Below are positions 14,807 through 53,994 of a stretch of 64,000 nucleotides of DNA, piece by piece (the first letter of the stretch is position 1; each line of letters starts with the position of its first letter). Below the pieces are notes generated by a model. It was not told the origin of the DNA. It searched no databases and saw nothing but the letters and a program-made list of their open reading frames with translations. Position numbers and translations under genes: made by a program. Source of the stretch: Pomacea canaliculata (lineage: Eukaryota > Mollusca > Gastropoda > Architaenioglossa > Ampullariidae); assembly GCF_003073045.1 (NCBI RefSeq), contig NC_037599.1:930001-994000 (forward strand). Reading direction: 5' to 3'.

Positions 14807-17800
14807 CTACCAGAAACTATCTAAATCACGTTTTTGTCTTCCTCTGCCACCACCAAAGCTATATCCAGCATCAAAACCCCTTCCTCTGTCTTTGCCGCCG
14901 TAACCCTCAGCTGCACGCTTCTCTTGATGGTGTTTGTACCGCTCAGCCATTTCTAGCAGTTCTTCTGGCACTACCTGCAGATAGAAATGGCACTACCATC
15001 TTGTAATGTTTTATGCAGATGTGAAATGTGGGCTGAGGCATTGCACACGAAATCTTGCAGACTATTATTCAGTTGACAAACTGTTAAAGCTACAACCCTA
15101 AAAATACTTGTTAAAATTAACAAATGAAACATTTGAAGACACAGGCATAACTAACCTGGTTTGCTTCAGCCATGATGTCAATTAGAGATTGGGCACTCCG
15201 CCAGTCATTTCTTGTCATGAAGGTCACCGAATTACCACAACGTCTGTCAGAATTGGGAGACATTTTACTACTTTCAAGAAGCTTGTGCAAAGATCTCTAT
15301 CTCTAAACTATGAGCAAGAAATTCTTTGCTAAGCATGTGCTTATAAAAAGTAAAATGACAGCTACTGGGAATTTTATAACTGCATACTTTATCTTTTAAC
15401 CACATATCCTTATTTCACAATAAAATCCATTTATTACCCTGCACGTCCTGTTCGACCAACTCGATGCACATACTCTTCAATGTTGCGTGGAAAATCAAAA
15501 TTCAAAACATGTCTGCAAAAACATGAAAAAGTGGGTTCTAGTGCCAAAATCAAATACTGAAGGACTAAGGAAAAAAAAATTAACTTGAACAAAATTAGTT
15601 TAAAATTACAATCAAAGAAAATCTCTACGTAGAACAATGTTGACAAACACTCTTGCTGTAGCTGCTGACTTGCTGCAGTGGACCTTACAAATTTGTTCGT
15701 TCTTTCATTGTTTTTTTAACAGTAGCATGGACATGTATTTCTGGATGCTTGTAAACAAACTTTAACTTCTAGAACAATGCCAATTCTCCTAGTTATACTA
15801 TTGATTTTAAATATCCAGAGCTGTGATTAAACTTATAAAATCATAAATGGTTCAGAGACCTGAAAGCCTACAACTTTGCAAAAGGATAAGATTTGGTCTC
15901 AGCTGAAGCACCAAAGCAAACATGAAGAAAACAGCCCATTTCAAAATCACAAAAATCCGACAGGCATGCTCTCAGAAACTTGAAAGAAAAGAATGCGGTC
16001 TGGGCTATATGGCATTCAAAGCTGAATCTTTTCTTTACAGTTCTTTTGCTTAGTTAAAATTACATCATTTTTTTCTTTTTCGACTGTTATTGCTGTCTGG
16101 TGTAGCCACCAAACAACATGGTGACATGCTTTACATTAGTGACACTAAGGTGACAGAAAATCAAGAAGTGCAAGTGGGGCCAGATAGGATGCAAACCAGG
16201 TGACACCATTGCCAGGCAGGCTCTTCACTGGTACCTTCAGAGGAAGAAGACAGTTGGGAGGCCAAAGCAGACTTGGAAAAGAACAGTAGAGAGACAAAGG
16301 ATGCCTGTACTACATTCACATCAGGTCAATGTCCTAAAAATGTGACTTTTCAACCACCCTTTTCAAAATATATCCCTCATAGTCTCTGACCCTCAGTCAA
16401 AATTATTATTTTTTAAATCAGGAGGGTATGATGTCTGCATCCTTTAAGAAATGTCACGTAGTAGGCTAAAGGTAGAATTCTGTTGTTAAAACGCGTTTTA
16501 ACATACAATTTTATGACAGGGGTTTTTATTTTAAGTGGCCAAAACAATGTGACTAGATGGGATCACAGCCCAAATGGAAGATGACCAGGCTGAGTTAAAT
16601 GAATTAAAAGAAAAATAATGGTCTCTTAATTTCCATCAAGGGTATATAGAATATATTTAACTTAACCGCAGGAAATGAGCAGTTCATGTATCCTAGCAAT
16701 GTGTGGTTCAGGTTTGTTTCCACCCATGCACCTACTTAAAAGGACTATTGTCCACAGATTTTCAGATAAGAAATCTTCATGTTTCATAGTTTATATGATA
16801 CACGCATGCACTGAAATAAATTATAGTAATAAAAGTGGAAGGAGAGGGGAACACAACCAGAGCCACTAAAGTAAAAGTAAATGTTTGCTATAATTGCGTA
16901 TCTTGGTGTAATAAGATTAGCAATGCACATGCCTGTAGGCAGGTGTGTTTCCAAAAATACATGAAATAAAGTCAAGGCCTGTAATTCATCATAAGGGGAT
17001 TGTCAGCGGTGACAAGGTTAACAATGAGTATTTGTTGCATAACCTGTAACTAGGGGAATGGGGGATATGCCATTTACTAAAGGAGAGCAAACAAGCAAAG
17101 AGGTGCAACATAAGAATTATTGTTCTATAAACATGGCCCATTAACAAAAGTATGACAAATTATCTAAAGTAAAACTTACGTGATATCCTTGACGTCTAAA
17201 CCTCTTGATGCAACATCTGTCGCAACAAGAATTCTCACCACACTTCTCTTAAACTCGTCCAGTGCTTGTTCTCTGTCACACTGCTCTCTGTCAAAGAGGG
17301 GTTGGGGGAAAAAATTAATCAAAACTGTTATAACTTGTCTACAACTTCTGCATACAAAAATTCATGTGAAAATAAAATGAATGGCATTAGATCTTGCTAT
17401 CAAGTAATGTTCCACTGTCATGCCTTGCACAAAAGATTCAAATAGCCTTCAGGGGCTATAAATGTGGAATGAATAATAGCTAAGAGTAGCAAGCAACTCT
17501 TCTAGAACCCAAAGGAAAAAAAGCTATTAAGAAAAATTGCTGATATCCTAGATAGCTACTGATGATGGCTTGACCTCTATGTAAGCTACTTCTAAATATG
17601 CATTGTGACCTGAGGCACTGCACACTCAGGCTCAACTGCTTGAAATAAAACCGTTGCTAGCCCACGCTTACCTATCACCATGGATACATTGGCACTCAAT
17701 GCCTTTCATGGCAAGGTCACTGGAGATGTCATCAGCTCTACAACAGCACAACAAATATTTATAAACAATGTTAGTAATGGAAATAACCTACGATCAAATA

Positions 17801-53100: not shown

Positions 53101-53994
53101 GCTAAGTTCGAACCTGCAACTTTTTCCGAAATTAATGCGCCAACATATATATTTTTTTAAATCAAAGACAAAACTTCGATATTAAACCTTGCTGGATGGT
53201 TTTTAATACATTGCATATTTGAATAGATCTACAATTCTACATCATTCTCACGTGGTCGAAAAACCTTTGTGCAAATGCCACACCACGTGCACGACGACAA
53301 CTGTGGCAAATGTTGAAAAAAAAAACCAGACAATCTGTGATTCTATAATGCTACTAAAAGAAAAACTTACTAGCGAGTCACCGTTCCCGCCTGTGCCCCT
53401 TTTACCTCGATCAGCTATACAAGCATTAGCTGGGTTAACTTCTTATCTCGACTACCACCATTAGAACATGTCTTAAGTAACATATGTTCGCCATGCTCTC
53501 GAAATGCTGATTTATTGCATCCGTAAAGACAAAATGTATGCGTTAATAGATTTACCAAAACCAAACTGAAGATTGTACCACAACCACATATAATTCAGTG
53601 TGCTCCGCGCGGAAACCAGTTTTAAAAAAAAATCAACGCAGTTGCCGAATAACGGATTTATTAAAAGATATTAAGATCTAAAAGCATTTTAAACGTCTTT
53701 ACGTGAAAATATTTTAATACTAAATAACTGTATTTTGAAAATCGTAGGAAATGTTAAGAATAAAAGCTGTACATGCATGCTCGATCTCATAACTACGCAA
53801 TACGACTGGTCACACCACAAGTCGTGATTCACGTGGTCGCCATTGCGGATTTCTCATTTGTAACATTTCAAATTTAACGTACCGATTATCTTGCCGCAGT
53901 CCCCAGCAGGAACAAACATGTCAACAGAGTTTCCACTGCCTCCACTTCTACTTCTTCCGCTGAAACCGCCTCTGCTTCCAAATCCAGACGACAT
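50174..53994 (-). CDS. Two-KH-domain RNA-binding protein, related to the DDX43-like N-terminus (7 exons, 183 aa)
   Basis: Exons, 5' to 3': 53994-53883, 51471-51416, 51271-51166, 50967-50926, 50732-50667, 50505-50450, 50287-50174. All are GT-AG and the 552-base sum closes in frame. A Gly/Ser/Arg-rich start (MSSGFGSRGGFSGRSRSGG) is followed by KH1 ([20 protein letters not shown] 38-41), a short Gln/Gly linker, KH2 (VGRLIGKGGSKVRELQ, GXXG 128-131) and the end AIDSITSQIY. KH domains bind single-stranded RNA or DNA, and both GXXG loops are intact. There is no helicase and no zinc knuckle. Matching intron positions and phases, including two 56-base exons that start after the first base of the GXXG glycine, tie it to the DDX43-like gene about 9 kb away. 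Its start is divergent from MRGBP. Function unknown. Confidence 0.9.
51024..51041 (+). repeat. 18-base G run
   Basis: An uninterrupted G18 lies in an intron of the two-KH gene; transcribed, it is a C-run about 55 bases upstream of the acceptor at 50968. It is a length-unstable homopolymer and an assembly risk. Confidence 0.9.
51472..53882 (-). other. First intron of the two-KH gene
   Basis: This 2.4-kb AT-rich intron holds no repeat family that I can name. A CACGTGGTCG-like patch near 53830 and the CG-containing stretch at 53780-53850 may be promoter-proximal. Confidence 0.35.

Follow-up and report, generated by a model that had tools for sequence, protein, structure and literature searches.

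Two linked genes of Pomacea canaliculata, one for a stand-alone two-KH protein and one for a KH–CCHC–KH helicase, as probable old paralogues

Two genes with KH domains lie next to each other on the minus strand of a 64,000-nucleotide stretch of the Pomacea canaliculata genome (the window; C10:930001-994000 of the 24 contigs, 440,159,624 bases in all, that were searched). The upstream gene is small (53994..50174) and has seven exons encoding 183 amino acids, as originally predicted; its spliced model is open. The downstream gene (40909..14807) encodes a helicase of 864 amino acids, for which 25 exons had been proposed and 26 coding exons were found. Their starts, predicted to be about 13 kb apart on one strand, are separated by 13,085 bases. 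In both models (Table 1) the exon boundaries were read by eye, with GT/AG at all introns and reading frames open to the stops. The nearest poly(A)-like signals after the small-gene stop are an ATTAAA at 1,768 bases and an AATAAA at 1,982 bases; after the helicase stop, the distance is 275 bases.

Table 1. Coding exons of the two KH genes, in window coordinates
Feature	Position	Strand	Content
Small gene exon 1	53883..53994	-	start codon, S/R/G-rich leader, KH1 first part; ends phase 1
Small gene exon 2	51416..51471	-	56-base KH1 exon, phases 1 to 0
Small gene exon 3	51166..51271	-	KH1 VSRD exon, phases 0 to 1
Small gene exon 4	50926..50967	-	42-base linker, symmetric 1-1
Small gene exon 5	50667..50732	-	KH2 first part, phases 1 to 1
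Small gene exon 6	50450..50505	-	56-base KH2 exon, GKGGSKVRELQ, phases 1 to 0
Small gene exon 7	50174..50287	-	KH2 VSRD exon including stop codon
Helicase exon 1	40756..40909	-	start, S/R/G-rich leader, KH1 first part
Helicase exon 2	40201..40256	-	56-base KH1 exon
Helicase exon 3	39850..39988	-	KH1 VSRD exon
Helicase exon 4	39467..39619	-	acidic linker, 153 bases, symmetric 1-1; without small-gene counterpart
Helicase exon 5	35877..36137	-	three CCHC knuckles (PF00098, three stretches), 261 bases, 1-1; without small-gene counterpart
Helicase exon 6	35413..35457	-	45-base linker, 1-1
Helicase exon 7	34147..34206	-	KH2 first part
Helicase exon 8	33799..33854	-	56-base KH2 exon
Helicase exon 9	33292..33424	-	KH2 VAKE exon
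Helicase exons 10-26 (span with introns)	14807..32617	-	linker remainder, DEAD and Helicase_C core, stop

By Pfam, the helicase has the domain order KH, three CCHC knuckles, KH and DEAD, then Helicase_C, so that both KH_1 stretches stand N-terminal to the DEAD core. The N-terminal part of this core finds its best PDB match in DDX53 (3iuy, 297.6 bits, 5.7e-88), with the next match 58 bits lower; DBP2, DDX5 and vasa give 239.6, 236.4 and 158.1 bits, respectively, and no entry named DDX43 occurs among the best 60 of the 70 matches. The available text of one study reports an alanine next to GxxG as conserved only in DDX43 orthologs (PMC7949032). This alanine is absent from all four KH domains of the window, which carry Arg or Lys there (VGRIIGRGG, CGKIIGKKG). 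Judged by sequence, the core of the larger gene can be filed as DDX43/53-type and its KH domains as something other than a standard DDX43 KH. In the small protein, Pfam finds KH_1 twice (1.2e-36), and the GxxG loops are intact (GRGG, GKGG).

Several further elements lie within the helicase gene. In its fifth exon, each knuckle unit is a repeat of 75 bases, and the units agree at about 90% (self match over 123 bases). An additional exon at 37522..37580 was rejected since its phases (1 to 0) do not match the next exon; this stretch of intron 4, on the minus strand, is exon-like with splice-like ends and is perhaps a decayed or alternative exon. Intron 17 holds a non-LTR-type element in pieces (21556-24607, plus strand), with an endonuclease match in its earlier frames, the ones scanned, and intron 12 holds a copy in the opposite orientation (28274-30613, minus strand) with endonuclease and reverse transcriptase matches. 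A reverse-transcriptase-like fragment in intron 6 (34693-35046, minus strand) reaches 26.5 bits to PF00078, for which the cut-off is 29.6. Inverted arms about 350-400 bases apart were seen by eye in intron 21 (~18050-18500) and resemble a short fold-back element. In the flanks (1-14000 and 54500-64000), the four frames tried, for example 4396-5652 and 58146-58442 on the plus strand, gave no Pfam match.

The four KH domains of the window share one anatomy. In all four, a phase-1 intron follows the first base of the first Gly of GxxG and leads into a 56-base exon, and a second intron, in phase 0, comes directly after that exon. The first of these introns had been noticed in the original prediction, together with S/R/G-rich leaders in both genes and FVPxxDCGKIIG in both KH1 domains, and all were recovered in the spliced models. 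Other parts of that description had to be adjusted. The G-rich middle exon with SK[IV]RELQ is indeed present, but the proposed form GxKGSK[IV]RELQ did not hold: the motif is GxxGSK[IV]RELQ, with GKKG in one of the four. A VSRD-type third exon is found in three domains, while helicase KH2 has VAKE, and the phase-1 end expected of this exon in both small-gene domains is replaced in the last one by the stop. Exon order and phases are alike, as had been claimed; the small gene follows helicase exons 1-3 and 6-9 with its stop inside the last, but the helicase has two extra 1-1 exons rather than the knuckle exon alone. By position and phase, not by sequence, small-gene exon 4 may answer to helicase exon 6. 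Both KH2 domains carry one extra residue near the domain edge.

When the small protein was compared with the whole genome, 20 exon-level matches were obtained at E <= 10: seven to itself, three to helicase KH exons (54%, E 0.010; 74%, E 1.08; 70%, E 1.93) and ten to other KH loci (25-48% identity, best E 0.018). The lead of the neighbouring gene is narrow at this level because the exons are short. Spliced domains were then scored among 26 domains, several of the 23 comparison KH domains being incomplete (joined exon fragments). Small KH1 scores 211 with helicase KH1 (42 of 65 residues identical), followed by small KH2 (133), PCBP KH3 (124) and helicase KH2 (118). Small KH2 has its three highest scores with the remaining KH domains of the window (133, 125 and 120; next 94). 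Helicase KH2 scores 125 with small KH2, 118 with small KH1, 114 with PCBP KH3 and 108 with helicase KH1. Given these PCBP KH3 scores and the exon-level E-values, the relationship of the KH2 domains is less clear. Identity between the KH2 domains is 26/68, within-gene identities are 30/68 (small gene) and 26/65 (helicase), and crosswise identities are 30/67 (small KH1 with helicase KH2) and 27/65 (small KH2 with helicase KH1). Relatives of the small protein were found in neither the bacterial/archaeal nor the viral contig collection, in one scan each, as expected for an animal gene.

The distribution of the two cuts was followed through the other KH domains of the genome. The Pfam KH_1 search gave 46 matches, 45 of them outside the two window genes; it detected only one of the four window KH domains, and KH domains split in the same way are under-counted by it. 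With this under-count, none of the 45 other matches has both cuts together: 27 are unbroken through the first position, 17 through the second, and in the remaining one, which is FUBP KH1-like, the cut comes two codons earlier. Singly, each cut occurs elsewhere. The first appears alone in a TDRKH-like gene (C2:18.58 Mb), in its KH2, where it was placed through a weak donor, and the second alone in an IGF2BP-like KH at C5:17231918. A GxxG cut restricted to the window pair was therefore rejected, and the shared introns are weaker evidence of kinship than had been supposed; they retain this role as a combination seen, among the KH_1 matches, only in the window KH domains, but not one by one. In FUBP KH4-like exons, the cut lies two codons downstream of the first-cut position. 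Such exons are scattered in the genome (L021-L024, L026, L032-L036), perhaps through an expansion of KH genes; those at C11:1144313 and C11:1857335 are identical over 45 matched residues, and one KH exon on C7 groups with FUBP KH4 (98/88).

The separation of the two genes is old. For the KH1 pair, dN is 0.33 and dS 1.68, and the other five pairs among the window domains have dS of 1.8 or more, two of them saturated; synonymous sites near or past saturation speak for an early split. Replacement change in the KH pair is well below synonymous change. In blastn, the two genes share nine matches, four of them from exon to exon and five of 15-27 bases (E 0.03-0.38). The non-exonic matches being short and chance-like, similarity between the introns can be considered gone.

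The history of the four domains was approached through topology tests and trees. Over 65 shared codons with 28 informative nucleotide sites, 18 sites pair the domains by position, five by gene and five crosswise, and pairing by position is supported in 15 of 23 codons. It is the best tree under all five models. The AU values of the two alternatives are 0.118 and 0.124 (LG+G4), 0.061 and 0.067 (LG), 0.152 and 0.075 (GTR+F+G4), 0.111 and 0.034 (GTR+F) and 0.032 and 0.030 (codon model); the alternatives are thus unrejected in three models, and one of the two is rejected in a fourth. In a tree of 27 rows, the four window domains form one group (95/94), inside which small KH1 joins small KH2 in 775 of 1000 bootstraps and helicase KH1 in 74. 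Holding small KH1 with helicase KH1, or the two KH2 domains, together is not rejected with the same rows (AU 0.377 and 0.428). The answer depends on what is included. When the 27 rows are reduced to 13, the group of four is recovered in 1 or 125 of 1000 bootstraps, by model, and with a provisional human DDX43 KH sequence added, in 489 and 739. Small KH1 pairs with helicase KH1 in 903 and 975 of 1000 when both KH2 domains are left out and in 900 and 901 without small KH2; without helicase KH2, it pairs with small KH2 in 928 and 962 and with helicase KH1 in 43 and 20. End branches measure 0.08 for small KH1 and about 1.5 for both KH2. Adding KH2 of the TDRKH-like gene to the window group is neither supported nor rejected (AU 0.298). 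With rows and models giving contradictory answers, wide KH trees were rejected as an arbiter of the duplication order. Grouping with unrelated KH families, named beforehand as a result that would speak against kinship, was not seen for KH1, but the placement of KH2 is unstable. The relationship of the KH1 domains rests more on identity and introns than on trees, and a history by position is likely for KH2.

Taken as a whole, the two genes are probably linked, old paralogues derived from one ancestral KH1-KH2 exon set. In that set, each KH would have been spread over three exons, with one intron inside the first Gly of GxxG and another 18 codons further on. Duplication of the set would have led to the 5' region of a DDX43/53-type helicase on the one side and to a stand-alone two-KH gene on the other, and the two symmetric 1-1 exons of the helicase, with the acidic linker and the three CCHC knuckles, would have come to distinguish the copies by gain or loss. 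Sequence comparison suggests that the two KH domains were probably passed on together. The prediction that the small gene is a relative of the helicase KH part, released from it by partial duplication, is upheld for the kinship, with the pair probably one unit (18 of 28 sites), but not for the release: on a single genome, with synonymous sites close to saturation and 65-column trees that are unstable, this direction of duplication is no more than a candidate.

Such a release would start from a one-KH DDX43 that acquired KH1 in this lineage; a copy of its 5' portion would then have been placed upstream, would have shed the extra linker exons and would stop behind KH2. This course is a serious candidate with slightly less than an even chance. 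It agrees with the pairing of the KH domains by position and with the single KH described for human and silkworm DDX43 in the available text of two reports (PMC7949032, PMC8025031). The provisional human KH sequence can be taken only as a lead in the same direction, as it scores 81 and 77 with the two KH2 domains and 69 and 61 with the KH1 domains. The same sequence, however, scores 71 with NOVA KH3, above both KH1, and groups with the two KH2 domains in 472 of 1000 bootstraps under one model and any window KH in 0 of 1000 under the other, and a rooted mixture tree prefers small KH1 with small KH2. The opposite course, with an older small gene whose KH pair was copied and joined to a DEAD-box helicase so that the present small gene is a surviving relative of the donor, is distinctly unlikely. 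The small gene is the simpler of the two, 1-1 junctions ease such a joining, and the end branch of small KH1 is very short, but a KH–DEAD arrangement is described for both human and silkworm in the accessible parts of the literature, which would make the donor at least that old.

It is also conceivable, if unlikely, that only KH1 is common to the two genes and that each KH2 arose within its own gene by copying of the three-exon set. The preference of the 27-row tree for joining the two small-gene domains, stronger still without helicase KH2, fits this course. A point against the favoured history is that the KH2 domains are no more identical to each other than the small-gene domains are. Against a separate origin of each KH2 stand the informative sites (18 by position, five by gene), the codon-model AU of 0.032 and the return of the KH1 pair in trees without small KH2; moreover, both KH2 domains are long-branched. 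Whether there are two genes at all may be asked as well, since the seven exons lie upstream on the same strand with homologous junctions in the same phase, could be joined in frame as alternative 5' exons of the helicase, and are followed by 1.7 kb without a poly(A)-like signal. Yet they begin with a start codon of their own and close with an in-frame stop, KH2 is complete with the last of them, and several poly(A)-like signals lie between the genes; this reading is highly improbable.

For the small protein itself, a single-sequence structure prediction gives two type-I KH folds (E-H-H-E-E-H twice) with a mean pLDDT of 69.4 and values under 50 for residues 93-110. The best fold matches are the tandem KH domains of PCBP2, IMP2 and FBP. 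These matches hold domain by domain: superposition of the whole pair is poor (TM 0.35-0.46, rmsd 16-18 in the top five), while single domains fit well, for example with an rmsd of 1.6 to PCBP2 KH3. The protein would have a disordered tail rich in S/R/G, followed by two KH folds that a flexible linker connects. Most likely, it would be an ordinary stand-alone tandem-KH binder of single-stranded RNA, whose target may perhaps be pyrimidine-rich. A role in trans is suggested by analogy to silkworm DDX43, where, according to the available text, the KH is required for ATPase activity even when it cannot bind RNA (PMC8025031), so that a free pair akin to the KH domains of the helicase could act on it as well. 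It is nevertheless quite improbable that the small protein docks on the helicase core or takes its RNA, as a linked activator or decoy at the step where DDX43 frees RNA from piRNA complexes. Competition with the helicase or its guidance, as proposed in the original prediction, would be a hypothetical role.

Were the pair what it appears to be, a stand-alone KH relative linked to a two-KH knuckle helicase would show how helicases gain or shed RNA-binding parts, and the small gene would offer a natural test of the KH part without the motor. In the parts available, silkworm work ties DDX43 to piRNA amplification (PMC8025031) and mouse work to sperm maturation (PMC10294715). The open-licence literature yielded no description of a two-KH gene beside a KH–CCHC–KH DDX43-like helicase, nor of DDX43 together with a zinc knuckle. 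DDX43 (HAGE) and DDX53 (CAGE) likewise have a KH before the core, and the core of the window helicase is nearest to DDX53. According to the available text, human and silkworm DDX43 have one KH (PMC7949032, PMC8025031), whereas the window helicase has two KH domains and three CCHC knuckles. The tandem KH proteins PCBP, FUBP/KSRP, IGF2BP and NOVA are matched by the small protein in sequence and, domain-wise, in predicted fold; unlike them, it has two KH domains only. Within the genome, the knuckle exon is 63% identical over 75 amino acids to the knuckles of a DEAD helicase at C2:9288500 (L038), and the best nucleotide matches reach 86-89% across 44 and 36 bases. This helicase, which we take to be Vasa-type, differs in having five knuckles and no KH in the 9 kb scanned. 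The TDRKH-like gene, named from its KH and Tudor matches, appears in its KH2 to be split, like the window domains, within the first GxxG glycine, but lacks the second cut and has a Tudor domain (matches C2:18584008-18584857). In the genome, the domain that best matches the small protein is KH1 of the neighbouring helicase, which has the same two introns.
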